Assembly (NCBI GenBank): GCA_963924555.1
Contig: OZ004595.1
Span: 4,458,599-4,522,598 of the forward strand
Length of the DNA: 64,000 bases
Reading direction: 5' to 3'
DNA from: Crambe crambe
Lineage: Eukaryota; Porifera; Demospongiae; Poecilosclerida; Crambeidae
Shown here piece by piece: positions 2,175 through 63,003 of this stretch (position 1 is its first letter; each line of letters begins with the position of its first letter). The translations under genes were made by a program, and so were the position numbers. The notes beneath the pieces were generated by a model that was not told where the DNA came from, searched no databases, and saw only the letters and a list, made by a program, of their open reading frames with translations.

Positions 2175-4571
2175 GGGTACATGAAAGGTCCTCTTCTCCT
2201 GGTGCTCTGTAGTACCCCTCCACACAAGGACATACTGCCAACCCAGGTTCCACACCCACACTGTTCTCAGGACAGTCACGACACTCACCATAAGTCATTG
2301 ACAAGTAAGTACCAGCCACACAAGCTGTAAATAACACAGTTTCATATTATTCATGATAAATTGTCCTATGCAGTCTAACCTTCAGTACATGATGTTCTAT
2401 TCTCTGTTGCCCGGAATCCTTGGTTACACTGACAACCTGACACAACACTCCATGTCCCTCCTGGACTACAGGTCAGAATTGGTGCTGCTCCACTCTCTGT
2501 ACCAGCATTTGCTACACACTGTCTTGTCACTCTGAGTGGTTCTCGACTTGGTGTTGTAATTGGAGGGGAAAGGGTCTCTGGTCGAATCATAAGTCCTACA
2601 ATTTCTTGGGGGCAGACATTGTAGAATATTATGATACGAGTAACTGTTAAACATGTGTCTTCATCTCTAATGGCAAGGTAGAATCCACTTGCATTAGTTG
2701 CAAAGTTGAGATACCTGTTCTGATTCTGTAGATTGTTATCATTTGGGACTACTCTACTTATTAGCACATAGTTACTGGTATTCCTGGCTGCAACACTGTT
2801 AATAGTAGATGTCTCATATCCATACCATGAGGAGATCCTTGAGCAGCCCTCAACACAACCTTCCTGCTCAAATTCTACTTGTATACTGACTTGAGGCAAA
2901 CGAGTCCCATCAACTGTTGTTCTGTTGATGAATTGTGTAATCAGCCAGTTATCCTGGACACCATCTCTAAAACCACATGCAGTCACTACCTGTCGGCAAG
3001 CATTGTCAGCACTCTGGAACCACTGCAAATATAAAACACATTAGAAGGGGTGTATACAATCGGTGGACTGGACTACTGGACTGGACTACTGGACTGGACT
3101 ACTGGACTGTGGCTCATACGAAATTATAGAAGTGTAGCTGTGTACATTAGTACACTAGAAGTGCATAATCATCCTGCATACCTCTGAATGACACTTGTTG
3201 TCTTGCACAAAAAATGGTAAGGCCATAGAATCTACTACGTAGATGATGGTATATGTTTGCTGCTTGTAAGAACTAGCATAAAATAAATAAATTTGCTACC
3301 AGTTGGAAATTTATAGTCAAGCTCTACCCTCCCCTCCAGTCCAGTGGTCCAGTCAGACACCCAGATACAGGTGGTGTCACTGGTGCATGGTAGCTTTGAA
3401 CCTGTGTGTACTTCCTAGGATAGTTTTGTTCGGGGAGGGAGGGAAGTGGAATGGAGGGGAGGGTAGAATTTGACTAAATTTGGATAGCTTTTACAAGCGG
3501 CAAACATACCTTCATCTTGTAGCTATAGATTGTATGGCCTTACCATTTTTTGCGCAAGACAACAAGAATCATTTAGTCTGCACATGCTCAGATGTAGGAG
3601 TGCAATTATAAACTACTGCAATTAGGCATGTGAACTGATGAGGGAAGATGTAATATTAGTAATTGCAGTAATTACTGGTAGCTACACTAGTAATTTGTTT
3701 ACCACTAGAAGTGCATATCATCCTGCATACCTCTGAATGATACTTGTTGTCTTGCACAAAAAATGGTAAGGCCATAGCTACAATCTATAGCTACAAGATG
3801 AAGGTATGTTTGCCACTTGTAAAAGCTACATATTCAAATTTAGTCAAAATCTACCCTCCACTCCATTCCACTTCCCTCCCTCCCCGTACAAAACTATCCT
3901 AGGAAGTATGTATATACATACAGGTTCAAAGCTACCATGCACCAGTGATACCACCTGTATCTGGGTGTCTGACTGGACCACTGGACTGGAGGGGAGGGTA
4001 GAGCTTGACTATAAATTTCCAACTAGTAGCAAATTTATTTGCTAGTTCTTACATGTATACAAGCAGCAAACATAATATACTTTCATCTAGTAGATTCTAT
4101 GGCCTTACCATTTTTTGTGCAAGACAATAAGTGTCATTCAGAGGTATGCAGGATATGCACTTCTAGTGGTAAACAAACGCAGCTACACTTCTATAATTTT
4201 GCATGTGCCAGGTGAAAGGGCAGTCCAGTAGTCCAGTCCAGTAGTCCAGTCCACCGATTGTATACACCCCATTAGAAGTAAAATTCTAGCAAATCCACTT
4301 CACTTACAGTAGCTCCTCTGCCTTGTGACTGAATACCATCAACATCCACCTGCTGCCATGCAGCACCAGTTTGTGATGATAGTAAACGGATGTAGTTGAA
4401 AGAATCCATCAGTATCCTTGCATTGACAGGGTATACTGGAGGAGGAACTCCTGGCACGCTGGGTAAAAAATTTGTACAGAATGAGTCACCATCTCCAGGA
4501 GCCTGAGCAATTATCATTGATGGCAGAGCAGTCAGACATATGAAAAAAACACCACTATACATTATGCCCAC
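2175..4571 (-). CDS. Eph-ectodomain receptor A, 5' exons only (partial)
   Basis: Three exons are supported: 4308-4571 (Met, hydrophobic signal peptide ending near IAQAPGDG, start of the ligand-binding domain), 2380-3022 (rest of the Eph-type ligand-binding domain including [13 protein letters not shown], ending in an IFYNVCP motif like the VYYKKCP end of Eph domains, then a Cys-rich part with TCSPGGTWSV and CQCNQGF), and 2175-2324 (EGF-like/GCC2-GCC3 type, [21 protein letters not shown]). Splice sites match those of receptors B, C, E and F, and the reading frame is open. No FN3, transmembrane or kinase exon is found in the 2174 bases downstream, where a stray PIGP exon and repeats occur instead. 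It is probably a truncated copy, although exons beyond the window edge cannot be excluded. The start could be the Met at 4571 or the one at 4562. Confidence 0.8.
3048..4269. mobile_element. 1.2-kb foldback DNA element in intron 1 of receptor A
   Basis: The element starts GGGTGTATACAATCGGTGGA and ends with its reverse complement. The 9-bp sequence CATTAGAAG flanks both sides (3039-3047 and 4270-4278). The same intron in receptors C and D reads through the uninterrupted target (CACACTAGAAGT), giving an empty-site comparison. The arms contain GGACTGGACTACT minisatellite units and long internal inverted repeats, so most of the element can fold on itself. No protein is encoded. The 9-bp duplication suggests mobilisation by a MULE-type transposase. 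Confidence 0.8.
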
Positions 4572-4578
4572 AGCTATT

Positions 4579-5424: not shown

Positions 5425-5433
5425 TTTAGAATT

Positions 5434-5515: not shown

Positions 5516-5567
5516 GCTCGAAGGATGCTCCTTCGAAGTCTAGAGGGAATTGTTGCGAGAGTAAAGG

Positions 5568-5948: not shown

Positions 5949-6277
5949 CGGGGGCAGTTTTCTCATTTTTATTTGACTCCTACCCCTGTGGCTTATTCAA
6001 ACATGAATTATTATTAGAGGTGTAGAAGACAAAGGTGTTTTATATGTATCTATGTGCTTTGCAGTCGGGAATTGGTAAGACCAGATTCAACTTTTGACTA
6101 CTCAACCCTACAATACAGTCCTATTTCTAACCATACAAATTCACTCAGTATAATTGTTTTAATGCCCCTTGTATCGGTGCGTGTATGCTGTCATTTCAGA
6201 TGCTTGGGCATAGCAGCTTTCAGCACTGATCATTATGATTAAGTTTTCACCTCTCTAACAAAGTGATCATAATTTTA

Positions 6278-12287: not shown

Positions 12288-12327
12288 AACGAAGTTTCCC
12301 TCTAGCTCTCAAGGTTCAAGGTTCTCA

Positions 12328-12409: not shown

Positions 12410-12418
12410 TTTAGAATT

Positions 12419-13360: not shown

Positions 13361-13386
13361 CTGAACTGAACAAAGATTTGATTGAT

Positions 13387-19905: not shown

Positions 19906-22430
19906 TTACTGTGCATGATCAATAACTTCATAGGTTCCAGTCATCTCGGATTCACCCTCTATGTTAGCTTGTGGATTACTCCTTGAGAACCCATACGATG
20001 GGTTTTCATTTAGGTCAAAACTTGCCTCCACTTGTGAGTGACTTTGTGGAGAGTACTGAATCCTTCTCTTATAGTGTATGGTAGTGGCCAACAGGAGCAG
20101 AATAATAGCAATCAATACCAGAACTATCAGCACTAAAACTATCACTCCAATTGCGGTTCCTGACAATGGAATACCTACAGTGACAACATAAACAATTATA
20201 ATAGCGAGTCTATGAGATAATATAGTTATTTTTTAGTATAACAAATCCACTGCTCCATAATTCTTCAAACATATTCTGCCATTCACATTTAACAATGTAA
20301 ATAGGCAACAGGTCAATATACATCATAATGGCACACTGCATGCACTGTACTGTATACAGTGCATACAGTGCATGCATAATATGTGACTTAGATAATGCAG
20401 TCAAAGTATAGTGTAATACAGATACTTCAAAAGATATCTTTGAAGTGACACAGGTGTAGGAATATTGTTAGGGTAGATGATCTGGAGGTCACCTCAGCTC
20501 TATTAACACTTGATAGTGATTAAGAATTTGATGATAACAAAAGTTCATATATGGTTGTATGTGTGTGAGTTGTTGATTGAAATGTTCTGTGTCAGTGTCC
20601 AAGCTAGAATGGAAATTTTATGTTTACAATTTATTTTGGTTGTTAGAGCTTACTTATTAGCTTTTATACTATTAATTTGTACAAGGTAATTAAATTTCTT
20701 GATTAATTTTCTTTGTTGAACATGACCATGAGTATAAATTAACATTGAAAATAGTTATTTCTTTCTTCTACTAATTTTCTGTTACCAGCTAGTGCAGAAC
20801 CTTTTGTCTCCTTACGAAGAACCCACAACAGTATGCACCGAGTTATCTAATGTGTCACCCTGAAAATGCAAGCCAAAGTAAAGTGCAATACGGATGCCCT
20901 AAAAGATATTTCTGAAGTAACACATGCAAGGTTATATACAGGTGTGATCATTAAGGTAATCACAATTAGTATACACAGAGTTATCTAGCTAATGATGTCT
21001 TAGGGTGGAAGGGAAGGAAACACTCTATACAGCAAAGTAATAATTACGACTTTAGCCAATCCTGCCCCCAATCACCTGTAATAGTATAGACTGTACATGT
21101 GGTATGTATTTGTGTTTGCTATTAAATTGTTTAGCACTCTAAAGTGTGACCTGCATAGTGGCAATTCAATTGTGTGTATAACAAATCTAAAAACTCGTTA
21201 AGTCTTGTTCATAATGCTTGACATCCATCTGATGAAGGGACTGACATGCATTTAATCTTACTCACGGGTGCATGGAAGGTCCTCCTCTCCTGGTGCTCTG
21301 TAGTAGCCCTCCACACAGGGACATACCACCAACCCAGGTTCCACACCCACACTGTTCTCAGGACAGCTACGACACTCACCATAAGTCATTGACAGGTAAG
21401 TACCAGCCACACAAGCTGTAAACAACACAGAGTTACAGAGTTTCATATTCACAATGATATATTGTCCTTAACAGTCTAACCTTCAGCACATGACTTTCCA
21501 TTCTCTGTTGCCAGGAACCCTTGGTTACACTGACAACCTGACACAACGCTCCATGTCCCTCCTGGGCTACAGGTCAGAATTGGTGCTGGTCCACTCTCAG
21601 TACCAGCATTAGCTACACACTGTCCTGTCACTCTGAGTGGCTCTTGACTTGGTGTTGTAATTGGAGGGGAAATGGTCTCTGGTCGAATCATAAGTCCTAC
21701 AGTTTCTTGGGGGCAGATATTGTAGAATACTATGACACGAGTAACTGTTAAACATGTGTCTTCATCTCTAATAGCAAAGTAGAATCCACTTTCATTAGTT
21801 GCAAAGTTGAGATATCTGGTCTGATTTTGTAGATTGCCATCATTTGGGACTAATCTACTTATTAGCACATAGTTACTGGTATTCCTGGCTGCAACACTGT
21901 TAATAGTAGATGTCTTATATCCATGCCATGAGGAGATCCTTGAGCAGCCCTCAATACAACCTTCCTGCTCAAATTCTATTTGTACACTGACTTGAGGCAA
22001 ATGAGTCCCATCAACTGTTGTTCTGTTGATGAACTGTGTAATCAGCCAGTTATCCTGGACACCATCTCTAAAACTACATGCAGTCACTTTCTGTCGGCAA
22101 GTATTGTCAGCACTCTGGAACCACTGCAAATATAAAACACACTAAAGTAAACTCTAGCAAATCCACTTCACTTACAGTGCTTTGTGAACTGCTATTATCA
22201 ACATCCACCTGCTGCCATACAGCACCACTTTGTGTCGATAGTAAACGGATATAGTTGAAAGAGTCCATCAGTGTTCTTGCATTGACAGGATGTACTGGAG
22301 GAGCAATTCCTGGCACACCAGGTAAAGTATTTGTACAGAATGAGTCACCATCTCCAGGAGCTTGAGCAATGACTACTGATAGCAGAGCAGTCAGACACAT
22401 GAAAAAAACACCTCTATCTACATCATACAT
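19906..22430 (-). CDS. Receptor B: short Eph-ectodomain protein without FN3 or kinase
   Basis: Four exons: 22176-22430, 21481-22123, 21266-21415 and 19906-20174. They total 1317 nt, giving a 438-aa protein. Order: signal peptide ([16 protein letters not shown]), Eph-type ligand-binding domain ([22 protein letters not shown]), Cys-rich part (TCSPGGTWSV), EGF-like module ([22 protein letters not shown]), a membrane segment (IGVIVLVLIVLVLIAIILLL) and a cytoplasmic tail of about 55 residues with NENPSYG and a C-terminal TYEVIDHAQ. The last two exons join in phase 1 and no FN3 exon lies between them. It probably binds a membrane ligand at the cell surface. NPSY and YEVI are the kinds of motif bound by PTB and SH2 domains when phosphorylated (inference). 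The gene is divergent from PIGP with 175 bp between start codons. Confidence 0.82.
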
Positions 22431-24557: not shown

Positions 24558-27500
24558 TTAACTGTTGCTGGAAAAGGCTGAAAACTCGAGGTATCCTGCT
24601 ACTCCTTCCAGTAATGAGTCTATTTCTTGCACAAGATCTTTAAAAAAGGGGCGTTTTTCAGGTGATGGATTCCAGCATTGAGTCATCAAGTTGTACCTTT
24701 CATATGAAAATTAATTAATTGTACCTATAGATACTCAAGATCCAAATTTTGAGGACTGGACATGATGTAGTAGCCATACAAGGCTCAAGATTTGTACTTA
24801 CATTATTATGCACAAACTATTATCAATGCAGTGTAAAACTCCTTCAGATTATAGCAAAAATCATTTTCTCTATAATAATTATAGGTAAATTAGTCATCAG
24901 CTTTATTGCAATTCAATAGGTCACAGCATTGCTTGTAGCTATGTAACAAAAAGTGCACATATGTACTCATAGTTGTCCACATACCTTCCCATAATTATAT
25001 CATGTGACGCAGTACCCACTAAGGTGATCAGAAAGCTCACCAATAATATGTAGCCAGCTAGCTACTATAAGGTTTATTATTGGGTTGGCAAATTAAGAAG
25101 CACTTTTTGTGTCATAGGTTTTCCACTCTAACTCCAAAAGCATAAGGTGTAAGGATTCTATATTTATAGCATAATAATTTATATGGAGGCTTTGAAAGTA
25201 TAGAATAATATCACTAGAAAAAAAGTTCAGGAGTGGGTTAGCAAAATATCTGAGAAATCTATCACAAACTCAAAAACTGTAGCTAAACTTACACTTTATG
25301 TGTGCATCCTGGATTGTTGGGTTTCTGGAGTCTTTCTCCACTTTGGAGGAGTTCTATGAGAGCTGAGGGATGAATAGTAGGGTAGGGGTTGTACCCAAGA
25401 CTAAACACTTCCCAACAGGTTACTCCAAATGACCACTGAGTAAACAATGCATGGAATAAAATAATATAGCCATGGTGGACACATGAGATTGTAGTTAATA
25501 TATGCTTTACCACATCTGTCTTCTCAGTAAAGATGCCATCAAGAAGACTTTCCAAGGCCATCCATTTCACTGGGAGTTTCACTGATGATTCCTTATCTCT
25601 TATCTCCTGTCTGAAGTAGTTACTGGAATATATAGATTCTGAGAGACCAAAGTCCCCCACTTTGATCACAAAATGGTCATCTATCCTACAAATAATAATA
25701 AGATACAAGTTCAAATATCTGCAACCACCAGAGCCTCAAAATTAAAATCACAGTCAATACAGTAGCTAACTTACACTTTGTGTATTTTTTGAGAACTAAT
25801 TCTATTCAGTACTGTAGCTAGCTAGTTCAAATTTCACTAGTAGCTAGAATATTATTACTAATTTTACTAATACACAATGACATTAACACATCACTAAGTA
25901 CCCTTGTACCCATGAGGCTAGTTAATTGTATGCAGCTTACATGCAGTTACGAGCAGCCAAATCTCTATGCACAATTTTTTCTGCTGCTAAATAACTCATT
26001 CCCTTAGCAATCTGGAAGCAGATTGAAAGAAGTTTTCTCTGGGAATCGTCAATCTTGAAAAGAATTTTTAAAATCATCACCACATAGCTAATAATAGTAT
26101 AACCCAACCATTTCAGTTTCAGCATCTCTGGGTAGAATGAGGTGAGATCTCTCTCTTTCAAGTAAGCCAGGAGACTGCCATTGGCCATAAAGGGCATAAC
26201 AATATACGGACTTTCTCCTACATCAGTGCACACTCCAATTAAATTCATCACATTTGGATGGTTGAACATCATCATCTTTTCACTCTCTATCATTAAATTT
26301 TCAATATCCTTGGTTGTATAGAGACCTATACGTATGATCATGAAAGTCTACAGACTTATATAGATATCCCTTGATTAGCTATATAGCTACCTTTCAATGT
26401 CTTGATAGCTACAACTTCTGTTGTACTTCTTTCTCGCCAACCTGTGAGGTTACCTTTGTATACCAGTCCAAATTCTCCTATAAAACAATGTTTATTGCTT
26501 GAACAGTGGTGCTAGGTGACCTTCCTCATATCCTTTTGTGTTATTGTGTATTTAATAGTGATGACCATGGGTGTTGTATTTCAAAAGAGGAGCAAGTCAC
26601 ACATGTACATATATGTTTGTATATCATATAATGTTATGGTTATGCATAGATTATAGCTACATATGTACATAGGAAGTTTACTTTCCATGCCCACAGCTGA
26701 GCTAGCTAGCTAGCCAAATTGAAGACATATAGAAGCCCCAGCATAGGGTAACTACTTGTCCCATAACTAACATCTCATTTCCCATATACCTTGTCCTACA
26801 GTATTGATGAGTTGAATAAATCGACCAGGTATGATTGCAGAAGAGTCAGAAAACTGTCTCTGTCTGGTGAATGGATTTTCAATCTTGCCATCTTTCATGA
26901 ATCATAGAATCATAATACCGTATACAGCAAATATTTCAAGTGGGGAAAAATTCACGGATTTCGCCTGAAATCTTCACTCACAAAATAAGTGAAATTGATA
27001 TCACTTACTGTCTAGTTTGTAGTAGCTATAGCTAGCTAGCTAGCTGCACAATCAATCTACGTACTCATAGTTATAGCAAAACGTTACTTGATACTATTAT
27101 AGCTACCAGATCCAAGAGGTCCCCTGTCAGTAACTGTGCCATCTTTGTCAATAAAAGTTGCAAACACAGAAGTGAGCCTATAAACTAACCAGCTAGCTAA
27201 TATTATGAAAAACCTGAAAGAAGTCTATTAGCTAGAGCACAACAAGAGCTAAAGGTAGCCATCATTATTTAACAGAAACGTGGTCATGCGAATATAATAT
27301 CAATAATGTCTTAGATGCAAATTTATTACTGCGAAATCTGATCCTCCCCACTTGAAATATTTGCTGTATTATGGTAATTATAAATTTAAAAACTTGCTTA
27401 CCAGGGTTACTCATAACAGAGTTCACTTCTGAAAGTTCTGTGCTATAATAGAAATATCAGATAGCATAATTATAGCCATAATGAATTAATGAGATGGCTA

Positions 27501-34957: not shown

Positions 34958-35870
34958 TGGTGCATGGAAGGTCCTCCTCTCTTGGTGCTTTGTAGTAGCC
35001 CTCCACACAGGGACATACCATGCACCAACCCAGGTCCTCAGGACAGCTGCGACACTCACCATAAGTCATTGATAGGTAATTACCAGCCATACAAGCTATA
35101 AATAACACAGAGTTAGCTACATATTCATGGTCTAACCTTCAGTGCATGATGTTCCATTCTCTGTTGCCTGGAACCTTCAGTTACATTAACAACCTGACAC
35201 AATGCTTCACGTCTCTCCTGGGCTACAGGTCAGACTTGGTACTCACTTTCACTAGTTACAAAGTTGAGATATCTGGTCTGATTCTGTAGATTGCCATCAT
35301 TTGGTGACTAATCTACTTATTAGCACATAGTTACTGGTATTCCTGGCTGCAACACTGTTAATAGTCTATAGACGTCTCATATCTGTGCCATGAGAAGATC
35401 CTTGAGCAGCCCTCAATACAACATTCCTGCTCAAATTCTACTTGTATACTGACTTGAGGCAAACGAGTCCCATCAACTTTTGTTCTGTTGATGAACTGTG
35501 TAATCAGCCAGCTATCCTGGACACCATCTCTAAAACCACATGCAGTCACGACCTATCGGCAAGCATTGTCAGCACTCTGGAACCACTGTGAATATAAAAC
35601 ACACTAGAAGTGAAATTCTAGCAAATCCACTTCACTTACAGTGTTACTATTATCAACAACCACCTGCTGCCACACAGCACCACATAGTGTTGATAGTAAA
35701 CAGATATAGTTGAAAGAGTCCATTAGTGTTCTTGCATTGACAGGGTATACTGGAGGAGCAATTCCTGGCACACCAGGTAAAGTATTTGTACAGCCTGAAT
35801 GAGTCACTGTCTCCAGGAGCTTGAGCAATGACCTATAGCAGAGCAGTCAGACACATGAAAAACATCATAG
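34958..35870 (-). pseudogene. Receptor pseudogene D (Eph-type ectodomain exons)
   Basis: Remnants follow the usual order: EGF-like exon at 34958-35098, ligand-binding domain at 35138-35590 and signal-peptide exon at 35634 to about 35870. The EGF-like exon has lost the block encoding the middle Cys stretch. The ligand-binding exon lacks about 190 bases around 35250 and has TAG in place of the Gln codon in the CRQVVTACG motif (about 35555). The signal exon has an altered start and a shifted frame at GCCTGAATGAG (about 35795). No membrane or kinase exon follows. It lies between C and E and is closest in flanks to B. Confidence 0.85.
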
Positions 35871-36506: not shown

Positions 36507-38777
36507 TTACTGTGCATGGTCAATCACTTCATAGGTTCCATCACCATCAGTCATCTCAGATTCACCCTCTATGTTAGCTTGTGGCTTACTCCTTGAGGAC
36601 CCATACGATGGGTTTTCATTCAGGTCAAAACTTACCCCCACCTGTGGCTGGGATCCATATGCAAGATTATCCTTCAAGTCAGAGCTTGCCTCCACTTGTG
36701 AGTGACTTTGTGGAGAGTGCTGAATCCTTCTCTTATAGTGTATGGTAGTGGTCAACAGGAGTAGAATAATAGCAATCAATACCAGAACTATCAGCACTAA
36801 AACTATCACTCCAATTGTGGTTCCTGACAATGGAATACCTACAGTGATAACATAGCTATATAATTATAGCTAAATGCATGTCTCTCAGATTAGAATATTT
36901 ACTTGGCATATACTTTTCAGTATAACAACATTCTTCAAACATTCTGAATCTATCACTCATAATAAACCTGAGTGTGGAAGCCACTGTGCAGTCAATATAC
37001 ACATAATGGGGCACTGTACACTATAAGTACCATGCAGTTATATCATGGAACTCAGATGGAATCCAAAACTGCTATAAATTTTGTACAATCACATGACTAA
37101 ATCACATCACAAAATATTTATTTACACATGTATGCATAACACATGCATGCCATGATCAACTGTTATGGTATTTTTAGTCCTGTTAACCATATTATTATAG
37201 CTATTATTTGTTTTCCACCTACAGCTGCCAACATTGTTGTCAGAAGTTTCTACATAGCTAACAACCTCTCTAAGAAGTTAGCTACTCCTCAAAAATGTGA
37301 CCACAAAAGTGTATGGTTACACAAATTCTAATAACCATGCATTGTTGTGCACATGTGACATCCATCGATGAGCATTATTTATTGAGATGATAGAAGAATT
37401 ATCTTTCCATAATAATTACAGTTTAAGGGTGAATCAGTTGAGAGAGATTGGTTGGCTAAATTGACAAAGAAATATTCAGTGGAGTGTGGGCAGATGCAAT
37501 TCCCTACTAGCTAGCTATATGTATCTACTTAGTACCTAGTGTTCCCGACTCATCAGTGGTGGTGGGGTTGGTAGGTGAAATAAAGAGAGGGGGGCTGCTT
37601 GCTACACCTGATACTCCATTCCTGGCGGTCACAAAGAACCGATAGTTGATACCAGGGGTTAGTCCTGAGGCACACATATACACAACCATCAAGTGGGTAA
37701 AAGAATGCATGATTATATAGTTTTAGCAATGTGAGAGCTAAGTGGACAATCAAACAGTGGCTTGCTACTATTAAATCCTTTATCCAGAGACATATATGCA
37801 TGCATGCATGAGAGACTTATAGACTTTAAGTTTGTGATTCTCAAGGGCTGTTTTTACAGTTTCAAACTAATAGTACGTGGTATGGTCTAAGTCAGTTAAA
37901 GCCCTTAGCCTCGGAGTTCCACTATTTTAGGACCTTTGAGCTGTGAGCTGTTGTCTATGATGAGCTGCATGTTGCCTATGCCTATGATGACCTTGAGGTC
38001 AGTCACTATAACAGCAACAGCTTCATGCAATAACCTATACTAATACCTGATATAGTTCCCATGGTAGTGTTGACAATGACTGCATTTATACGTCTAGAAC
38101 TTCCTTCTTTTTGATAGAACAAGACATAGACAGTGTCATTCCTGCCACCAAAGTTCACTGGGGGATCCCACACCAAGGTAACTGAGACAGAAGTCTGCAA
38201 CTCTATTTGAACATTCATTACTGGAGAAGGGGGTTCTAAGGAGGAAATTATAGTCATGATCATAAAATCACTCTTACAATAATCTCAGAGTGACATAATT
38301 GTCACATTGACAGCTAAAAGTAATCTACTCAAGAAGCTCAGATTGACTGATTTGGGTAAGTCTGGGTGAGCCTCACACCGTTGCAAGTTGGAAGCCGAGA
38401 AGTGTACCCGTGTAGAATTCAGTGCACAATTACACGTATGATCTGCTAAAGCGTGTAAGTATGCAATAATACGTCGGAGATACACGCTAAGCGCGCTTTA
38501 TCGTATAATTCCGCAAAAAAAAGGCGTAAAACGGCAATAATCTCGTGTAAAATAACGTCTACACGCGCCGTTTATCCCTTTGCCTACCAAAAGCGTGCAA
38601 TTTTGCACATTAGTCGTTTAAATGGGAAAACTCGCTTAAATAGATGTAAAATTGGAATTGGCGGCCTTATCTATCTCAAAAAATCTCTGAGAACAATAGA
38701 GCGGTGAAATCGGAACTTTGAAGTGATGAGTCATAAGTGGTTTTGCTTTGATCAAACTTTGATCTTTGCTTTCAACA

Positions 38778-38811
<34 letters not shown>

Positions 38812-41800
38812 AGAAGACACAGGAGGGCATGGTGAGTGTCTTGGGTGATGAGTGGATCCAGCTCGGGCTCTGTCTACTGAGAATAGAGATGAGAAGAGGC
38901 TGCAGGGGACTGGAGCACTATAGTGGGCGTGGCCTATCGGTTGCCAAGCATAATTAAGTGTGACTCTTAGCGTGACGACCCCTGCCCATTCGATTTTGAT
39001 TTCAAAATCTAAATGCTATTGCAGGCTAAGGGTTATTGTCACGATTTAGCGCGCTTTAGCGTGCAAATGCGCGATAAAGTCAACACAGGTAATTACATTA
39101 TCCGCAAGCAAAGTAGTTGCGGCACATCGCTCCACAAGTCTCCACAATCAAGCAAACACAAGTTGGTAAAGGATCACCCTTGTGTGCATGGCCTTGGCAT
39201 GGTGGGCAGCCATGTTGTTTTCGAATCAAGACCAACACCACAAGATCTTGCTTTTTGAAGCCCCAAGATCTAAAACTGTTCCATTTAGATTTAAAACTGT
39301 TTTCCCCTTTCTCACCTCAGCAAGTGGTCACAAGGCTGCTGGTTGATGATAAACTAGTTATCTCTTCTAGGTAGATCTAAAATAGTCTTTTTTTCCGATG
39401 CCTTTTAGGCATCCCAATACTGGCATGAATGTGCAGTGTTTCTGGAGTGGAGAGGCTTATAGCTAATTGTAGTATTGGTATATACACATCACAGCTTGAA
39501 GTGAATATTCATCGGTTTTCACTTTAATGACTTTCAATGTTACAGTGCCACAGGCTTAAAGAGTAGAACTTTTCATGTTTCTGTGTTCCAGAGTTTGTAT
39601 TTTCTAAGCTACAGGTCAGAGGGGTCTGAGGATATAAATCAGCTATCACTCTCACTACATTAAAGATATCAATGTTGAAAATGAAACCATATTGTTTATA
39701 AACAACTGCACGCTAAAACGGGTGTGGGATTCGCTCATAATTTCTATAATTCATTTAGTCAAGGCCTACAATCTTGAACATTTCTTCCACTAGCATTAGT
39801 ATCACCTTTACAGTTCTCTTCGCCATCCTAGCACAAGGTAAGTTTCCACAATATTCAGTAGAAGCTATTTTTTCTTCATATTTTTAGGTCCTAATGTGTT
39901 TAGATCATATTTTGTCCAAATATTGTAGTTAAGATTCATTATTTGAAAAGCATGTCCAGCTAGTGTAAATATGATCTAAACACATTAGGACCTAAAAATA
40001 TGAAGAAAAAACAGCTTCTACTGAATATTGTGGAAACTTACTATGGCAAAGAGAACTGTAGAGATGATACTAATGCTAGTGGAAGAAATGTTCAAGATTG
40101 TAGGCCTTGACTAAATGAATTATAGAAATTATGAGCTAAAAAAAGCGAATCCCACACCTGTTTTAGGTACCTTCATGTGCAGTTGTTTATAGCTAAACAA
40201 TACGGTTTCATTTTCAACATTGATATTTTTAAGTGATAGCTGATTTATATCCTTGCTGAGTTTCAGACCCCTCTGACCTGTAGCTTAGAAAATACAAACT
40301 CTGGAACACAGAAACATGAAAAATACAAAAGTTCTACTCTTTAAGCCTGTGGCACTGTAGCTATATGGCACAGAGTAAAAATAAAGTTGAAATTGAGATG
40401 CCTAAAATGGGGAAGCAAACAGGGCCGGATCCAGATATCCAATTATTCAAAATTATACTCAGCTAGCTAAAGCTAGCTCTGTAGATCGATCAAAACCAAA
40501 AAAGGACAGAAAAAACAACAACAAAATAAACAAAATTAATGCAATTTGTAATGTAAATCAAACTAGTAAGGGATTTAACTCACTTGTACATGGAAGGTCA
40601 TCCTCTCCTGGTGCTCTGTAGTAGCCCTCCATACAGGGACATACTACCAACCCAGGTTCCACACCCACACTGTTCTCAGGACAGTTACGACACTCACCAT
40701 AAACCATTGACAGGTAAGTACCAGCCATACAAGCTATAAACAACACAGCATTTCATACTCACAATATTATTGTCCTGAGCAATCTAACCTTCAGTACATA
40801 ATGTTCCATTCTCTGTTGCCCGGAATCCTTGGTTACACTGACAAACTGATACAACATTCCACATCCCTCCTGGGCTACAAGTCAGACTTGGTGCTGCTCC
40901 ACTCTCTGTACTAGCATTTCCTACACACTGTCCTGTCACTCTGAGTGGTTCTTGACTTGGTATTGTAATTGGAGGGGAAATGATCTCTGGTCGAATCATA
41001 AGTCCTACAGTTTCTTGGGGGCAGACATTGTAGAATACTATGACACGAGTAACTGTTAAACATGTGTCTTCATCTCTAATAGTAAGGTAGAATCCACTTT
41101 CATTAGTTGCAAAGTTGAGATACCTGGTCTGATTCTGTAGATTGCCATCATTTGGGACTAATCTACTTATTAGCACATAGTTACTGGTATTCCTGGCTGC
41201 AACACTGTTAATAGTAGACGTCTCATATCCGTGCCATGAGGAGATCCTTGAGCAGCCCTCAACACAACCTCGCTGCTCAAATTCTACTTGTATACTGGCT
41301 TGAGGCAAATAAGTCCCATCAACTCTTGTTCTGTTGATGAACTGTGTAATGAGCCAGTTATCTTGGACACCATCTCTGAAACCACATGCAGTCACTCTCT
41401 GTCGGCAAGCATTGTCAGCGCTCTGGAACCACTGCAAATATAAGGCCAAGCAAACTTGATTATTAGTTTCTCAACTCATTTCTTGTTAAACAGGATGCAG
41501 GCGGGCGGTTATTATTCATTATTGCATTATACTTCCTGTCTTGAAAAATTATTACAACAACGGCAGTAAGGAAAAAAATATCACTATAAAAGCAGTGAAA
41601 AGCATGTTGAGGCCAATCCACAAGTTCAGGTATACAGTTCCACAATAGATACAACATCCTCATCCCCAGCTAGATTTGACATGCTGGCCAAATAACTTGC
41701 AGACATCATCCAAGATCAGCTTCTCGTCCACAACACTGATTGGCCAGCAAACACCTTCTCCAAGCTAGACCCAGACATGTCTTATCATTGGGTGAGATCC

Positions 41801-42823
41801 ACCAATAGCTTTGCAAAGACCTCAGAGAAAGTTGGCCGTGTTTCAACAGGCTTCGATTGTTACTTGAAACGGTAAGGTTCATCAGGGATCACGATTCTGT
41901 AGCTAAATTCTGCAGGTAGCTAAGATGGCATACACTATCTCTAGCTTACACACAGCTGAGCAGAGAGCTAGAGATGCACACTGTGCATGCTGCGCCGCCA
42001 GACTATGTAAGCGCTCACATGACGAAATTATTAGGAAGTTCAGGAAAAGGATGCGGGCAGTGATGAGAAACTATAATCTGGTGTGAGGCGCGAGGGTCTG
42101 GTGACACATAATACTTGGACTTGTTTGGGGGCAGGAAGTGCTGGATGACGCTTCCAATTATTCATGTGTCACAGTGGGCAGAACCGCAGGAACATCTCTC
42201 CTAGATAGAAAAGCATCCAACTGCTCACACTTCAACCCCAATCTAACAGTCGGCAGCGTCTTTCAGTGTTGTTGCAGAGCATGTGGATTGCGAGCGCTTT
42301 TAAATGACATCATCCAGTGGCGCGTGATGTCATTTCACATCACTAAACGCCAGAATACATCACATAATGATAGTCGATTTCTTGCTAAAAGTAGATTTCT
42401 TGCTAAATGAACAAGTCCAAGTATTATGTGTCTCCAGACCCTCACACCTTCGGCGCTCGGGGCTGGCTGCGCCAGATTAGAGAAACTAATCAAGTTTGCT
42501 TGGCCTAAAACACACTAGAAGTAAAATTGTAGCAAATCCACTTCACTTACGGTAGTTCCTCTGCCTATTGAACTACTGCTATCAACATCCACCTGCTGCC
42601 ATACAGCACCACTCTGTGATGACAATAAACGGATGTAGTTGTATGAATCCATCAATATCCTTGCATTGACAGGGTTTACTGGAGGAGCAACTCCTGCCAC
42701 ATCAGGTAAAGTATTTAAACAAAATGAGTCACCATCTCCAGGAGCCTGAGCAATGACCACTGATGGCAGAGCAGTCAGACACAGGATAAGAACGTGATAA
42801 TACACACTGACACCACAATTCAT
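36507..42823 (-). CDS. Receptor E: Eph-ectodomain receptor with FN3 and kinase-less tail
   Basis: Six exons: 42551-42823 (signal peptide, [15 protein letters not shown]), 40789-41431 (ligand-binding domain, VIVFYNVCP), 40584-40733 (EGF-like), 38047-38235 and 37536-37664 (one split FN3: [19 protein letters not shown], then GLTPGINYRFF) and 36507-36838 (membrane helix IGVIVLVLIVLVLIAIILLL and tail). They total 1716 nt, giving 571 aa, with all junctions in frame. The tail repeats a motif, KDNLAYG then NENPSYG, and ends TYEVIDHAQ as in receptor B. No kinase exon follows; the stop at 36507 precedes pseudogene D. It is probably a cell-surface binding receptor signalling through recruited partners or acting as a decoy (inference). 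Introns carry a 1-kb insertion (41443-42506) and an 820-bp palindrome. Confidence 0.85.
38779..38806. repeat. Poly-T tract
   Basis: A run of about 27 T in the intron between the EGF-like and FN3 exons of receptor E, followed by AAAGAAGAAG. The surrounding intron 38400-39540 is otherwise unassigned. The region has several CGCG/GCGC-containing motifs but no exon recognised. Confidence 0.9.
39540..40360. repeat. Palindromic element with about 390-bp arms
   Basis: GTGCCACAGGCTTAAAGAGT...TAGGTCCTAATGTGTTTAGA on the left is mirrored by TCTAAACACATTAGGACCTA...CTTTAAGCCTGTGGCAC on the right, with a short centre at about 39935-39960. Only scattered mismatches were seen. It sits in an intron of receptor E. 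No coding capacity. Confidence 0.85.
41443..42506. mobile_element. 1.06-kb insertion with inverted ends in intron 1 of receptor E
   Basis: It begins AGGCCAAGCAAACTTGATTA and ends with the inverted form, CAAGTTTGCTTGGCCT. It interrupts the AAATATAAAACACACTAGAAG intron sequence that is continuous in C and D, so the empty site is known. No clear target duplication. The interior has two further inverted blocks (about 42090-42130 with 42410-42450). Conceptual plus-strand peptides at about 41700-41880 and 41970-42090 (ending MRAVMRNYNLV) are not recognised. Confidence 0.7.
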
Positions 42824-55127: not shown

Positions 55128-58100
55128 TTAACTGTTGCTGGAAAAGGCTGAAAACTCAAGGTATCCTGCCACTCCTTCCAGTAATTTGTCTATTTCTTGC
55201 ACAAGATCTTCAAAAAAGGGACGTTTTACAGGTGATGGATTCCAGCATTGAGTGATCAAGTTGTACCTTTCATATGAAAATTAATTAATTACACTTTCTG
55301 TACCTATACTCAAGCTCTCTGATCTTGCAAATTTTGAGGACTGTAGTAGCCATGCAAAGCTCAAGGTTTATACTCACATTATTATGCACAAACTATTATC
55401 AATGCAGCGTAAAACTTCCAGATTGCAGCAAGAATCATTTTCTCTACATCATTATAGCTAAGATTAGTCATCAGCTTTATTGCAATTCATTAGGTCACTC
55501 TCAGCCTCTACTGTAGCATTGCTTGTATGTCTAATTATAGCTTGAGTAGAGCCATATTATGAACTCATAGTTGTCCACATACCTTCCCCTATATCATGTG
55601 ACACAGTACCCACTAACTAAAGGTGATCAGAGAGCTCACCAATAATATGTAGCCAGCTACTAAGGTTTATTATTGGGTTGGCAAAGAAGCACTTTTTGTG
55701 TCATAGGTTTTCCACTCTAACCCCAAAAGCATAAGATGTATAGAAATTCTATATACATTTATGGTATTGAAAGTATTCACTAGAAGAAGTTCAGGAGTGG
55801 GTTAGCAAAATATTTGAGAAATCTATCACAAACTCAAAAATTGTAGCTATAACTTACACTTTATGTGTGCATCCTGGATTGTTGGGTTTCTGGAGTCTTT
55901 CTCCACTTTGGAGGAGTTCTATGAGAGCTGAGGGATGAATAGTAGGGTAGGGGCTGTATCCAAGACTAAACACTTCCCAACAAGTTATTCCAAATGACCA
56001 CTGAGTAGAAGACAATGCATGCAATAAAATATAGCCATGGTGGACACATGAGATCGTAGTAGATAATGCTTACCACATCTGTCTTCTCAGTAAAGATGCC
56101 ATCAAGAAGACTTTCCAATGCCATCCATTTCACTGGGAGTTTCACTGATGATCCCTTATCTCCTTTCTCCTGTCTGAAGTAGTTTCTGGAATATATATCT
56201 TCTGAGAGACCAAAGTCCCCCACTTTGATCACAAAATGGTCATCTATCCTACAAATAATAATTACTATCAACATAGTTATAAGATATAATTCGTTGGTCT
56301 ATCTGTTGACATTATATTTTTATTATATGATATCGCATCATATCAACATACGTATTTTAATTCAACATAATCTCGACATTTCGGCTAGAATACTCCAGCC
56401 TTCATCAGGAGAGGATGCTCATGCGCATGCGTGACTTCTGGCTATTTTCTGTATCTCAAATTTTGTTGTTGTTTTTTCCTCTGATGAAGGCTGGAGTGTT
56501 CTAGCTGAAATGTCGAGATTATGTTTAATTAAAATACGTATGTTGATATGATGCAATATCATAATAATAAGATATAAGTGCAAATATATATCTGCAACCA
56601 CCAGAGCCTTGAAATTAAAATCACAATCAATACTGTGGCTAACTTATACTTTATGTATTTTATGAGAACTAATTCTATTCAATACTGTAGCTTGCACTAG
56701 TGATTATTACTAACTTTACTAATACACAATGACATTACACACTAGCATAGCATTGTATGGGGCAAGCATGATGCGTACATCAGGCATTTGCTGTAGTCTG
56801 TCTCGCCTGCTCTCTGGAGATTCTACCTCACGTTTCTGTCGATCCCTGGCAGACGTTCAATGTAGTCTGGCTTCTGTAGCTTCTAGATTCTCCCTATCCA
56901 TTCTCTCTTGGTCCTTTCCAGAAGCTGTTCTTGACGTTGTTCAGCACGTTGAGCTTGATCCTGTTTGTGTCGTCTTCTTAGATGAACACACATTCCTCAG
57001 TTGTTTCTGCTGCTCGACAAGCCCTTTCACACTCTCTTCACCTTTGAAGCTGTACCTCTTCATCTTGTTCAGTAGCCCTGCGCATGCGTGAATTGTAGAT
57101 TTATTGCGCGTGCGTTTATTAGGATGTACGACGATAGATACATAGAAACACACATTTATATGGGCTCAAATGGCTGACTGACCAGTGTGGGACTCGTTCA
57201 TGCTCGCCCCAATAATATCACTAAGTACCCTTATACCCACAAGGCTAGTTAATTGTATGCAGCTTACATGCAGTTACGAGCAGCCAAGTCTCTATGCACA
57301 ATTTTTTCTCTTGCTAAATAACTCATTCCCTTAGCAATCTGGAAGCAGATCGAAAGAAGTCTTCTCTGGGAATCTTCAATCTTAAAAGAATTTTAACAAG
57401 TTAGTCTTTTAAAAGACTGGATGCCTCGGCACGTAGTAAACTCATTTGGTTATCACTGATTTATTTTTGCAGGTATATAAATAATTATAGGAGTTATAGC
57501 TACTGAAGATCCATGCACTGTTATTATCACATCAGTTTTTTGTATAGTATAGTATAGTTTGTATAGTATAGTATAGTTTGTATAGTATAGTATAGTATAG
57601 TATGTATCAGTATCAGTTTGTATCAGTTTGTATCAGTTTCAGTATAGTATAGTAATGTTGTTTTTTGTTAATGCTATTTTTTTAAGTGAGCAAGCTTTTA
57701 TGGTGGTCATAGCTATAGCTTGGCTCTCTTTCAGCTGCTTGTGACTTTATAGTTTCTGTTCTTGTTAGTTAAGGGCTTTCTTGCAGGTTCTCTCGCTATT
57801 ATATGGCTTTCATGTTAGTTTTCTTGCTTACTTTCTGTTATTATAACATGCCTGCTGATCTTGCAGCTTAATTGGCTCTCTTTCTGCTTTCTCACAACTC
57901 AGAGTCTTAACTTAACTTTGTAGCCTCTGTTATTCGCTATTTAAGGCTTACTCTTGCTGTTCAGATCACCATGAGGTTTGTACACTCTGGTCTCGCTGTT
58001 TGCTCTCAGACAGTCGCTAACTTGCCCAGTTACTTTCTCACTTATACATATGTGGCTTATAAGGTCAAGGTCATGGGCATGGGTATAACTATTAGCGTGT

Positions 58101-61100
58101 GCTACTAATAAGACGTACGTGCCTTCGGCATTGTGCCTCGGCATTGTGCCTCGGCACTCTGGTGCTGAGGCAAAAATCATCACAACATTAGCTATAGTCT
58201 AAACCCAACCATTTCACTTCCAGCATCTCTGGGTAGAGTGAGGTGAGATCTCTCTCTCTTCAAGTAAGCCAGGAGACTGCCATTGGCCATAAAGGGCATA
58301 ACAATATATGGACTTTCTCCTACATCAGTGCACACTCCGATTAAATTCATCACATTCGGATGGTTGAATATCATCATCTTTTCACTCTCAATCATTAAAT
58401 TCTCAATATCCTTAGGTGTATAGAGACCTATAATGATCATGAAAGTCTACAGACTTGTATAGCTATCCCTTGATTAGCTATATACCTTTTAATGTCTTGA
58501 TGGCTACAACTTCTGTTGTACTTCTTTCTCGCCAGCCTGTGAGGTTACCTTTGTATACCAGCCCAAATTCTCCTATAAAGACGAATAATGTTTATTGCTT
58601 GAACAGTGGGCTAGGTGACCTTCCTTGATTGTGTATTTAATAGTGATGACCATAAAAGGGTGTTGTATTTGAAAAGAGGAGCAAGTCACACATGTATGTA
58701 TATGTTTATACAGCATATGTTAATATGGTAATGCATACTATATTATTATAGCTCCATATGTACGTAGGAAGTTTACTTTCCATGCCCACAGCTGAGCTAG
58801 CTAGCCAAATTGAAGACATACAGAAGCCATACTTATCCAATAACAAACATCTCGTTTCCCATACCTTGTCCTATAGTATTGATGAGTTGAATAAATCGAC
58901 CAGGTATGATTGTAGAAGAGTCAGAAAACTGTCCCTGTCTGGTGAATGGATTTTCAATCTTGCCACCTTTCATGAATCATAGTATCACATTTCAAGTGGG
59001 GAAAAATTCATGGATTTCACTTGCATCCAGCAATCCTCGAAATTTTCACTTATGAATGAAATCGATATCGCTTACTGTGGAGGGGTCACCTAGTTTGTAG
59101 CAGCTAGCTAGCTGCACAATCGATCTAGCTATTATATAGCAAAAATGGTTTACTGCATTGCTTGAAACCAGCACTAACCTCCATTATTGAAGGGTTAGCC
59201 CATGACCACGTTAAATAATGATGGTTGTCTCTAGCTCTAGTTGTGCTCTTCTTTCAGTTTTTTGTACATAGCTTAGCTAGCTGGCTAGTTTTATAGGCTT
59301 CACTTCCATGTTTGCAGCTTTTATTGACAAAGACAGCACAGTTTCTGACAGAGGACCTCTTGGATCTGTCACAGACGATAATCCACAAATTTATTATTGC
59401 GAAATCTGTTGCCTATGCTAATCCTCAAATTTTTCCCATTTGAAATAATTATTTGCTGCATACTGTAATTATAGATTTAAAAACTTGCTTACCAGGGTTA
59501 CTCATATCAGAGCTCACTTTCGAAAATTCCGTGCTTTTATTTCTATAATAGAAATGTCAGATGTATAGCAGTTATATTATGGCAATAATGAATTAATGAG
59601 ATGGCTATAGCTAGCTTGAATCACTACAAGCCTCCTACACTACACTACTATAATATACTTTCATATAGAAATGATTATACAATGTCTTATGAATAATAAT
59701 GAGTAAAGTTCTATATACCATAACCTTAGTGCTTGACTTACGTCACTTCTGATGGTTCTGTATCTCCTTTGTGTCCCTTTCCTGTTAGTATTATCATCAG
59801 AAAGATGATCACTGATACAACAAAATCTCCTTTTAAACACAACTGGTTACCTTCAATACAAACCTCAAAGACCCCTTGGCCTAACAAACATTCAGCTACG
59901 AAACAGTATAAGGATTTCCCTAATAGCTAACTGGCCATCTTAGGCTGAGGGTGTTCTAAAAAGGCAGACATTAGTAGAATGAAATGTACTTATACTGATT
60001 TGAGGTCTCTAATATTAGTGATACTCACCTGAATTTCGACGCTGCCGAAGACTGAAAGAGAATAAATGAAATCTGTTTAATTATGTTGTAGTTACTACAT
60101 ATAGAATACTTACATGATGAATACTGCAATAATAATTGTCCCTATTAACAGCAAGATGATAACAGCCACCAGTGCTCCCAGTACAGCACCAATTATAGAT
60201 CCAGGCCCATCAGTGGAGTCGTCAGTAGGTGAAACAAAGACAGGGGGCTTGCCTGCTACACTTGATACTCCATTCATAGCAGTCACAAAGAACTGATAGT
60301 TGACACCAGGGGTTAGACCTGAAGCACACACATTGCACATTAAAATAACTTAAGTACCAAGTGAAAGTTAGCTTGGAAAAAATTCCCCCTCATTAAAAGT
60401 AATCTGAAAAACTATGCTAGGTAGCATTATTGACACACGAGGGCAATGAGAAAAAGTTTTAGAACTGTACAGAACACAAAAGGATTGCAGCTTTATGAGT
60501 AATAGAAATTTAACACAGCTACTGTCTATAATTGCACATACAATTGCATATCCACACCTGTGGACGATACACGTGAAGTCAAGAGTGCAAAATCATAATA
60601 ATACCAAGTGCCGAGACACTATAACCAAGTTGTATGTACATCAAACAATGTTATGTGCTTACACCTCAGATGATATACCTGAGATAGTTCCCATGGTAGT
60701 GTTGACTATGACTGCTTCTACACGTCTATTACTTCCTTCTTCTTGATAGGACAAGACATAGACAGTGTCATTCCTGCCACCAAAGTTCACTGGGGGGTCC
60801 CACACCAAGGTAACTGAGTCAGAGGTCCGAGACTCTATTCGAACATTTGTCACTGGAGAAGGGGGCTCTGAGAAAAAAAGTTATGGATGTAAGAACAAAA
60901 TACATAAAGGTACAATAATGCACCCTACATGTGTGCACAGCAAGAACACTATGTATTCCAAATGGCCATAATGTGTCATGAAGTGGCATCATTATTACAT
61001 GGTGTGTAAGTATGTGGATCACATGTGTAAACAGTTGAAATACGTACCCTAGCTATTATATGAGAGTACCTAACACCATTCACCTTTTCACTGCACTCAG

Positions 61101-63003
61101 TTCCACTTACTATTAAAAAGGCATCAAAATAATTGTATCACTGCAGCAGCCAGGTAACATAGAGAGAGGAGCTTATAGCTATTCATAAGAGATAGCTGCT
61201 CTCTACTAATACACACACATAGCTACTCCTACTATTGAGTACCCATTCCTGATTGCAATCACAAGCTGTTGTGCATACTTTTACTCTATCACTTCAAGAC
61301 TAAATGACTATGATGAGAACGATTAAACACAGGACTCAGTCTGCCATTCAACTGATAGCTGATAGCTCAGGGCAAGTATTTTTGTACCTGTAAAATATCA
61401 AGAGAATATCCCAACCAAAGATAAGTTAGGATTTTAAAATAGGTACAGACAGAAAACTTCAGAGATTATTGAAACTGAAAATGAAATGTTACACTGAGAC
61501 CACAAAATAGATTAGTTTGAAGCTAATAAACACCACCACTAGCACTTTAATGGTACAAGACCAGTTCCTCTTGCCAAGTGAGCATGTGTTGAAAACACAA
61601 GCACATACATGTCATATGACTCAGTGTTTGTATCCAAACATCCTGCATGACTTGGCCAGGCAATGAAGTTGCCCCATCAAGTGTCTATTGGAGTAGAGGG
61701 TACCATAGAGTCCAGTGTGTAGTCTCTAATCGAATAGGAGGAGTTCCCCCTTGTACATTAATGCTATTTAGCCATATCTCAATGAACCTTCCTGCACCTT
61801 TCTCATTGGCATGGCCTTATAAGGTCTAATCATAGCATTAACTCACGGGTGCATGGAAGGTCCTCCTCTCCTGGTGCTCTGTAGTAGCCCTCCACACAGG
61901 GACATACTGCCAACCCAGATTCCACACCCACACTGTTCTCAGGACAGTCACGACACTTACCATAAGCCATTGACAGGTAAGTACCAGCCATACAAGCTAT
62001 GAATAACACAGTTTCATATTCACAATGATATCATCTTAAGCAGTCTAACCTTCAGTACATGACGTTCCATTCTCTGTTGCCCGGAATCCTTGGTTACACT
62101 GACAACCTGACACAACACTCCACATCCCTCCTGGGCTACAGGTCAGACTTGGTGCTGCTCCACTCTCTGTACTAGCATTTCCTACACACTGTCCTGTCAC
62201 TCTGAGTGGCTCTTGACTTGGTGTTGTAATTGGAGGGGAAATGGTCTCTGGTCGAATCATAAGTCCTACAGTTTCTTGGGGGCAGATATTGTAGAATACT
62301 ATGACACGAGTAACTGCTATACATGTGTCTTCATCTCTAATAGCAAGGTAGAATCCACTTTCATTAGTTGCAAAGTTGAGATACCTGGTCTGATTCTGTA
62401 GATTGCCATCATTTGGGACTAATCTACTTATTAGCACATAGTTACTGGTATTCCTGGCTGCAACACTGTTAATAGTAGATGTCTCATATCTGTGCCATGA
62501 GGAGATCCCTGAGCAGCCCTTAACACAACCTTCCTGCTCAAATTCTACTTGTATACTGACTTGAGGCAAACGAGTCCCACCATCTATTGTTCTGTTGATG
62601 AACTGTGTAATCAGCCAGTTATCCTGGACACCATCTCTAAAACCACATGCAGTCACTGTCTGTCGGCAAGCATTGTCAGCACTCTGGAACCACTGCAAAT
62701 ATAAAACACACTAAGGTAAAATTCTAGCAAATCCACTTCACTTACAGTAGCTCCTCTGCCTTGTGACTGAATACCATCAACATCCACTTGCTGCCATACA
62801 GAGCCAGTTTGTGTCGATAGTAAACGGATGTAGTTAAAAGAGTCCATCAGTATCCTTGCATTGACAGGGTATACTGGAGGAGTAACTCCTGGTGTACCAA
62901 GTAAAGTATTTATACAGAACGAGTCACCATCTCCAGGAGCCTGAGCAATGACCACTGATGGCAGAGCAGTCAGACACATGAAAAAAATACCACTATACAT
63001 CAT
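55128..63003 (-). CDS. Receptor F: full Eph-ectodomain receptor tyrosine kinase, apparently intact
   Basis: Fifteen exons: 62746-63003, 62050-62692, 61847-61996, 60679-60867, 60114-60318, 60029-60051, 59742-59781, 59493-59533, 58865-58966, 58486-58572, 58210-58427, 57268-57380, 56074-56248, 55858-56000 and 55128-55266. They total 2526 nt, giving 841 aa. Order: signal peptide, Eph-type ligand-binding domain, Cys-rich and EGF-like modules, one FN3, membrane helix ([21 protein letters not shown]), juxtamembrane, kinase with G-QGEFG loop, [48 protein letters not shown]. All catalytic motifs are present. The kinase resembles the MET/AXL group more than Eph, which has IPIRWTAPEAI at the P+1 region. 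No SAM domain or PDZ motif follows. Three kinase introns carry transposon insertions. Convergent with PIGP copy 2. Confidence 0.87.
56329..56560. mobile_element. 232-bp MITE in a kinase intron of receptor F
   Basis: Terminal inverted repeats of about 85 bp begin GATATCGCATCATATCAACA and contain ATAATCTCGACATTTC. The paralogous intron in receptor C (25686-25940) lacks it. The target duplication is obscured by AT-rich flanks. Confidence 0.75.
56738..57215 (-). mobile_element. Element Y relative in a kinase intron of receptor F
   Basis: The left end TAGCATTGTATGGGGCAAGC and right end CATGCTCGCCCCAATAATAT form inverted termini like those of element Y. The minus-strand interior encodes charged fragments ([30 protein letters not shown]) and GCGCATGCG blocks, as in Y. 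Absent from the matching intron of receptor C. Confidence 0.65.
57395..58165 (+). repeat. Interspersed repeat Z, copy 2, with TATAG microsatellite
   Basis: It enlarges the intron that is 55 bp in receptor C to 829 bp. It starts AACAAGTTAGTCTTTTAAAA and ends with TGCCTCGGCA direct repeats. (GTATA)n-like bases lie at 57542-57660. The left 400 bp match the reverse complement of 101-510. Confidence 0.75.
61022..61846. other. Intron of receptor F between EGF-like and FN3 exons
   Basis: No repeats shared with the rest of the window and no exon recognised. The plus-strand 60-aa frame at 61647 appears spurious. Confidence 0.5.

Follow-up and report, generated by a model that had tools for sequence, protein, structure and literature searches.

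The 64,000-nucleotide window of the Crambe crambe genome analysed here (C18:4458599-4522598; C18 is contig OZ004595.1) carries a tandem array of receptor genes whose predicted products begin with an Eph-type ectodomain. Five copies can be read (A, B, C, E and F) and one is dead (D); all lie on the minus strand, and the readable copies have an exon design in common: an exon 1 with a hydrophobic start, a 643-nucleotide (nt) exon 2 (acceptor TTTGCAG, donor GTTAG) and a 150-nt exon 3 (donor GTGAGT, in 5/5 readable copies). Exons 1 and 2 are 52-54 nt apart in B, C and F and 1.1-1.3 kb apart in A and E. This layout had been proposed from the letters of the window (the sequence-only reading below) and is borne out by splice sites and frames. 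From the 3′ end of A exon 3 (2175) to the F start codon (63003), the features are, in window coordinates:

Copy A, 2175..4562, minus strand: Eph-ectodomain exons, truncated copy
A exon 1, 4308-4562, minus strand: signal-like start and start of the ligand-binding domain (LBD)
A 643-nt exon, 2380-3022, and A 150-nt exon, 2175-2324, minus strand
Copy B, 19906..22430, minus strand: exon 1 ~22176-22430, exon 2 21481-22123, exon 3 21266-21415
B membrane/tail exon, 19906-20174, minus strand
Copy C, 24561..34255, minus strand: exon 1 33998-34255, exon 2 33301-33943, exon 3 33087-33236
C FN3 half, ~29714-29902, and C FN3 half with transmembrane (TM) segment, 28267-28461, minus strand
C kinase exons, 26791-26889, 26392-26475, 26109-26323 (1 nt short), 25943-26053, 25511-25684, 25295-25435 and 24561-24695, minus strand: FGFR/RET-like
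Copy D, 34952..35865, minus strand: dead copy in which pieces of exons 1-3 remain, broken by stops, frame shifts and an internal gap
Copy E, 36507..42823, minus strand: exon 1 42551-42823, exon 2 40789-41431, exon 3 40584-40733
E FN3 halves, ~38046-38236 and ~37571-37684, minus strand
E membrane/tail exon, 36507-36838, minus strand: with NLAYG, NPSYG and TYEVI
Copy F, 55128..63003, minus strand: exon 1 62746-63003, exon 2 62050-62692, exon 3 61847-61996
F FN3 half, ~60679-60867, and F FN3 half with TM segment, ~60114-60318, minus strand
F juxtamembrane micro-exon, 23 nt, 60029-60051, minus strand
F kinase exons, 58866-58964, 58487-58570, 58210-58425, 57270-57380, 56074-56247, 55860-56000 and 55131-55265, minus strand: FGFR/RET-like

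The sequence-only reading had A stop after exon 3, B go straight to a membrane exon, C and F continue into FN3 and kinase, E carry FN3 without kinase, and D be dead. Its account of B holds, the FN3 exon query finding no FN3 in that copy, as does that of D, from which a 216-aa query recovers only residues 1-74 and 180-216, with stops. The rest needs amendment. Nothing was found downstream of A (no FN3 or tail exon among the exon-query places between A and the next LBD fragment, C18:4444911); its 97.7% identity to the kinase-bearing copy at 4.378 Mb (L010) is confined to window 1584-3040, and because the homology ends at 1584, A appears to be a copy cut about 0.6 kb past its exon 3, its stop looking like a break. 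E does have FN3 and no kinase, but it is not merely kinase-less, having a membrane/tail exon in common with B. FN3 and kinase are both present in C and F, but the kinase is not Eph-type, and that of C is 1 nt short in the alpha-C exon.

The Ephrin_lbd profile (PF01404) scores over the Pfam cut-off in all five readable copies (E = 1e-9 to 1e-11), and Ephrin_CRD is at or over its 27-bit cut-off in three (B, E and F), falling short of it in C (26.8 bits) and A (21.2 bits). A phmmer search with the F ectodomain returned EphB2, EphA4 and EphA2 (4.5e-34 to 1.2e-32); two titin chains rank higher only because the query matches them repeatedly through their FN3 repeats. When the LBD and cysteine-rich region of F were searched alone, the best match was EphB2 (5e-22), followed by EphA2, with the alignment covering the cysteine-rich region of both. 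C, E and F have one FN3 domain spread over two exons, where an Eph receptor has two domains; the plus-strand copies at 4.25 and 4.26 Mb have two FN3 first halves each.

The kinase of C and F is, by prediction, an FGFR/RET-type receptor kinase and not an Eph kinase, a class taken from best matches and a long insert between helices D and E, not from a kinase tree. The seven F kinase exons were joined as a query, and the best 60 of 822 rows were considered: FGFR1-3 and one RET make up 59 of them (225-217 bits; FGFR3 225, RET 218), the top row is an EGFR chain, and no Eph occurs among the 60. As a control, the kinase of the copy at 4.08 Mb returned 43 Eph rows (EPHA3 first, 297.5 bits) after the EGFR chain, then a designed SRC/ABL ancestor. 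The EGFR chain tops both searches because it holds two kinase domains and scores twice; after the same chain, the C kinase stretch alone matched MET, FGFR and AXL. The 4.08-Mb gene also encodes a juxtamembrane segment, STYVDPQTY...EEFAKEI, which looks like that of an Eph, and a SAM domain over cut-off (SAM_2, 4e-17), whereas no SAM was found in F or C, both of which end a few residues past the kinase. By hand count, 34 residues separate the D-E helix landmarks in F and 21 in the 4.08-Mb Eph kinase; the available text of Yeung et al. (2021, PMC8662651) states that, among receptor families, two are without a D-E insert: Eph and EGFR. A search with the Eph juxtamembrane region and N-lobe, in which the best 150 of 336 candidates were scored, found one gene, that at 4.08 Mb (three rows at 88-94%; other listed rows at most 56%), and a divergent second Eph kinase could escape at this depth. 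Tyrosine kinase exons also form large tandem arrays on C5, C6, C8, C12, C16 and C17.

Six copies do lie in the window, as the sequence-only reading had it, but the array extends far beyond. Across the genome searched (143 Mb, 119 contigs), Ephrin_lbd matched 31 places, 30 of them over cut-off, and the 643-nt exon of the window, used as a query, matched 42. Full-length 643-nt exons number 21, all at C18:4.08-4.54 Mb (at 4.08, 4.24-4.26 and 4.33-4.54 Mb), 16 with an open frame and five frame-broken; 19 of the other 20 are 92.0-95.3% identical to the F exon, and L029 is 73% identical. Whole blocks are duplicated as well: window A-B-C-D-E is collinear with loci at C18:4.378-4.440 Mb at 95-98% identity (B with the 4.388-Mb locus, 97.8% over 3.4 kb; C with 4.400 Mb, 95.1% over 2.2 kb and 98.4% over 6.2 kb further downstream; D and the E tail with 4.421 Mb, 95.7% over 2.4 kb; E with 4.438 Mb, 95.5% over 3.7 kb). 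The exon identities and the duplicated blocks support the lineage-specific tandem expansion of Eph-ectodomain genes that had been proposed. Eleven divergent LBD places (28-37% identity) lie on C11, at C18:2.67-2.69 Mb and at C18:3.6 Mb. FN3-like exons and a membrane exon follow at the C11 loci L054 and L055, and cysteine-rich exons and a membrane exon follow at L056 (C18:3.67 Mb); no kinase was found downstream of these three among frames of at least 55 aa (6.5-7.7 kb each), a threshold at which shorter kinase exons could be overlooked.

Outputs were assigned to the 21 full-length copies from sequence only, according to which FN3, tail and kinase places come next on the strand of each copy. 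A membrane/tail exon follows 12 copies (some with stops in it), an FGFR/RET-like kinase follows five (C, F and the copies at 4.378, 4.400 and 4.534 Mb), and an Eph kinase follows one (4.08 Mb); none was found for A, for the copy at 4.409 Mb or for L029, whose downstream sequence was not read. The predicted outputs are an FGFR/RET-like kinase without SAM (F and the frame-shifted C), a tyrosine tail (B and E), none found (A), and an Eph juxtamembrane-kinase-SAM region (4.08 Mb). Ectodomains that hardly differ are thus joined to unlike cytoplasmic regions, and the array is "shuffled" in a stronger sense than the sequence-only reading could know when it used that word.

The tail exon of B and E encodes a membrane helix with NPSYG and TYEVI near its end, and NLAYG also in E; NPxY and pYExI-type motifs are PTB and SH2 ligands. 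Used as a genome query, it matched in 19 rows, of which 16 fall at 14 array places (11 at 84-100% identity and three at 54-60%; 11 of the 14 without stops), two at C18:1.80-1.81 Mb and one, partial, at C11:4.83 Mb. At C18:1.80-1.81 Mb (L048, C18:1803001-1811000) the tail exon is about 80% identical to that of B and E and is adjoined by exons that look Ig-like (Ig_3, E = 8.6e-6; at 26.6 bits it stays below the 30-bit cut-off), and the tail cassette may therefore be common to several receptor families. Exon 3, FN3 and tail exons also occur at L049 (C18:4363001-4371000), with no LBD listed before the kinase-bearing 4.378-Mb gene, of which they could act as an alternative 3′ end.

The kinase-bearing gene at 4.53 Mb is a mosaic of two relatives. 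From the 643-nt exon on, it is identical to the 4.08-Mb Eph gene at 98.9% of 2108 ungapped columns (95.8% over 2464 bp gapped), and across FN3, TM segment and micro-exon at 98.0% of 1048 columns. This alignment stops about 16 nt after the micro-exon, in the intron that follows; beyond it, one 165-bp stretch aligns at 77% and matches window C and F too. The kinase part of the 4.53-Mb gene is instead identical to F at 99.2% of 4829 columns. F itself would be a similar join. Its 643-nt exon shares 95.2% identity with that of the Eph copy and 93.9% with that of the 4.53-Mb copy. The micro-exon ends in phase 1, and the acceptors of the Eph juxtamembrane exon and of the first FGFR/RET-like (foreign) kinase exon both fit that phase. 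A 40-nt exon considered as the juxtamembrane exon was rejected as out of phase with the next exon; the 23-nt micro-exon fits in F. In C and the 4.400-Mb gene the sequence past the TM exon differs, with a micro-exon-like stretch further on in C, and in the 4.374-Mb gene the stretch after the TM exon is altered.

The tree comparison suggested by the sequence-only reading was run on the 643-nt exon and rejected a single foreign-kinase clade, while an FN3 tree of 11 rows gave little resolution (one of eight inner branches starred; a group at 94/95 unites the Eph gene with F and the 4.53-Mb gene). The LBD tree, which leaves 9 of 18 inner branches without resolution, is in line with exchange: it makes the 4.53-Mb copy the sister of the Eph copy (99/95), and it joins C to the kinase copy at 4.400 Mb, E to the copy at 4.438 Mb and B to that at 4.388 Mb. 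One LBD clade of the five foreign-kinase copies was rejected at a p-AU of 4.75e-6, and again at 5.6e-4 when it included the Eph copy. At least four changes between kinase, tail and Eph states are needed on this tree over 18 labelled rows, a count that leaves out A, L028 and L029.

We propose, with a probability of roughly 0.7, that the array consists of Eph-ectodomain receptors whose cytoplasmic outputs have been exchanged through phase-1 introns. Ectopic recombination or gene conversion, together with segmental duplication, would swap the cytoplasmic part and keep the recognition part. The copies would then recognise identical or related surface ligands; F-type copies would signal by kinase trans-phosphorylation via a non-Eph kinase, and tail copies would be decoys, docking subunits or non-catalytic co-receptors that other proteins phosphorylate. 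For A, including its unspliced form, secretion is the most that would be expected. The short intron of C reads through in frame, so that an unspliced form of C would stay open, a use that we note and do not claim.

Several observations weigh against this proposal. All splice junctions are predicted from AG/GT, phase and conservation. In its FN3-TM stretch the 4.53-Mb gene is as near to F as to the Eph gene (98.0% each), and F and the Eph gene share 97.4% identity there; as the two parents look alike in this 1 kb, the mosaic crossover cannot be located inside it. The tree test does not reject a post hoc grouping of F, C, L018 (4.400 Mb) and L026 (4.534 Mb) with the Eph copy (p-AU 0.149). LBD exon and kinase are both open in only two of the five foreign-kinase copies (F and 4.53 Mb). 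The median LBD dN/dS is 0.60 over 105 pairs of 15 copies, with L029 and the five frame-broken copies left out, and 9 of the 105 pairs exceed 1; the LBD exons are thus mildly constrained, and part of the array may be decaying. A genome search for ephrin by PF00812 gave no candidate, and 14 controls gave no match either, so absence is not shown. One ephrin candidate from a human ephrin-B2 query (one place, E = 1.24) was rejected because its neighbours, a PSI-like and an IPT-like exon by eye, look plexin-like; this search does not show absence either.

Some of these observations lead to the rival that survives best, although we consider it unlikely: the array would be largely dying, with few working genes and many pseudogenes that are alike through recent duplication and gene conversion. 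The five frame-broken 643-nt exons (that of the 4.400-Mb copy among them), D and other fragments, the LBD median and the transposon-like open reading frames (ORFs) seen by eye between copies all fit this picture. So do indels in two of the five kinases, which fall in the same GA-rich alpha-C stretch, C lacking 1 nt and the 4.374-Mb kinase having 1 nt more. Against it stand the 16 open exons, the 11 stop-free tail places and the kinases: all seven kinase exons are open in the F, 4.53-Mb and 4.400-Mb copies, and kinase dN/dS is 0.23-0.37 in all ten pairs of the five copies. That range was computed without the first kinase exon and without the alpha-C exon from the indel on, with the frame-shifted C and 4.374-Mb kinases kept, and two of the ten pairs differ by only four changes. 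LBD pN/pS is above 1 in three of ten printed 20-codon windows (1.37, 1.05 and 1.67), values that come without a significance test and from which we claim no positive selection.

An ordinary lineage-specific Eph expansion, in which the kinase-less forms are simple truncations as reported for sponges from transcripts, seems to us improbable. The ectodomain is plainly Eph, and the available text of Krishnan et al. (2019, PMC6485061) describes sponge Eph duplications as lineage-specific and names kinase-less forms. The kinase-bearing copies, however, carry a kinase that is not of the Eph type; a single Eph-type juxtamembrane/kinase gene was found in the genome (best 150 of 336 candidates), and the tail copies have a specific membrane/tail exon in common.

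We likewise give little credence to an assembly or haplotype artefact, with two haplotypes laid end to end and the mosaics arising as mis-joins. In an outbred animal 95-98% identity may be haplotype divergence, and the collinearity of A-B-C-D-E with 4.378-4.440 Mb could have this origin. Yet the 4.38-4.44 block holds two extra LBD copies (4.409 and 4.417 Mb), A is without the FN3 and kinase that its 4.378-Mb partner has, and 0.45 Mb separates the 4.53-Mb gene from the Eph-kinase gene, the back halves of the two not aligning. That the kinase exons are separate genes merely following Eph-ectodomain genes is very unlikely: the joining of ectodomain and kinase is a prediction from sequence, and intron lengths range between tens of nt and about 3 kb, but LBD, FN3, TM and kinase follow in this order on one strand in 5/5 cases, and TM exon, micro-exon and first kinase exon are in phase in F and the 4.53-Mb gene.

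Building on the exchange of outputs through phase-1 introns, one may speculate further, at long odds, that the array is a combinatorial recognition locus. A fast-duplicating Eph-type module would have been repeatedly exchanged between a kinase, a docking tail and a soluble form by phase-1-intron recombination, with the tail cassette shared with Ig-domain receptors; one set of surface ligands could then elicit several responses, perhaps opposed to each other, as might serve a sponge in telling self from non-self when it meets another individual.

Other features were noted by eye in the window, on the minus strand: MULE-type transposase-like ORFs between A and B (10296-12308), Ty3/Gypsy-like gag-pol fragments in several frames (13683-17366) and a PHD-finger-like cysteine pattern in an ORF (6275-6721). 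Between E and F lies an Ig-like ORF (45061-45378, minus strand; Pfam Ig_3, E = 0.075, under cut-off). Elsewhere in the genome, three silicatein-like exons stand in tandem about 5 kb apart (L039-L041, C15:0.872-0.883 Mb). A silicatein active site with Ser is a demosponge hallmark; the pattern CGASYAF, with Ser for the cathepsin Cys, occurs at the three C15 places, a reversed control giving none, and the C15 silicatein-like exon reads CGASYAFSAMAALEGANALATGKL, which fits a demosponge host.

Sponge Eph expansion, kinase-less forms and a mismatch between LBD and kinase clades are already known. The available text of Krishnan et al. (PMC6485061) reports 100 Eph-LBD sequences, 15 of them full-length, in a survey with 24 sponges; it describes lineage-specific Eph duplications from transcripts and different clade numbers for demosponge LBDs and kinases, and its discussion names Eph forms without a kinase. 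A genomic tandem array with exchange of kinase class is not described for the sponge Ephs in that text, where the word "tandem" occurs 0 times, nor in the available text of Arcas et al. (2020, PMC6993872). More broadly, the pairing of an Eph ectodomain with a kinase of another class was not found described in the open-licence literature as available, including PMC6485061, PMC6993872, PMC8662651 and PMC8242945; subscription papers and supplements lay outside this scope. The array would provide a recent case of a cytoplasmic domain swap between receptor tyrosine kinase classes. Since each half of one gene matches a different relative at 98-99% identity and homology between the two kinds of gene ends in one intron, how animal receptor kinases gain new ligand-output pairings becomes testable in a living sponge. 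The locus suggests that a single recognition module has been rewired to several outputs in the course of evolution.

Compared with metazoan Eph receptors, the array copies have LBD, cysteine-rich region, FN3 and TM segment in the same order, but metazoan Ephs have two FN3 domains, where C, E and F have one and B has none found, and they carry an Eph kinase and SAM, where F has a non-Eph kinase with a long D-E insert and no SAM. The F kinase resembles the FGFR/RET kinases with a long D-E insert in its best scores, 34-residue D-E spacing and activation segment, whereas the ectodomain differs, F carrying an Eph-type one. Paired activating and inhibitory immune receptors have an ectodomain unrelated to that of the array, whose tail motifs miss the strict ITIM pattern; like the array, however, they place closely similar ectodomains on different cytoplasmic outputs in one cluster.

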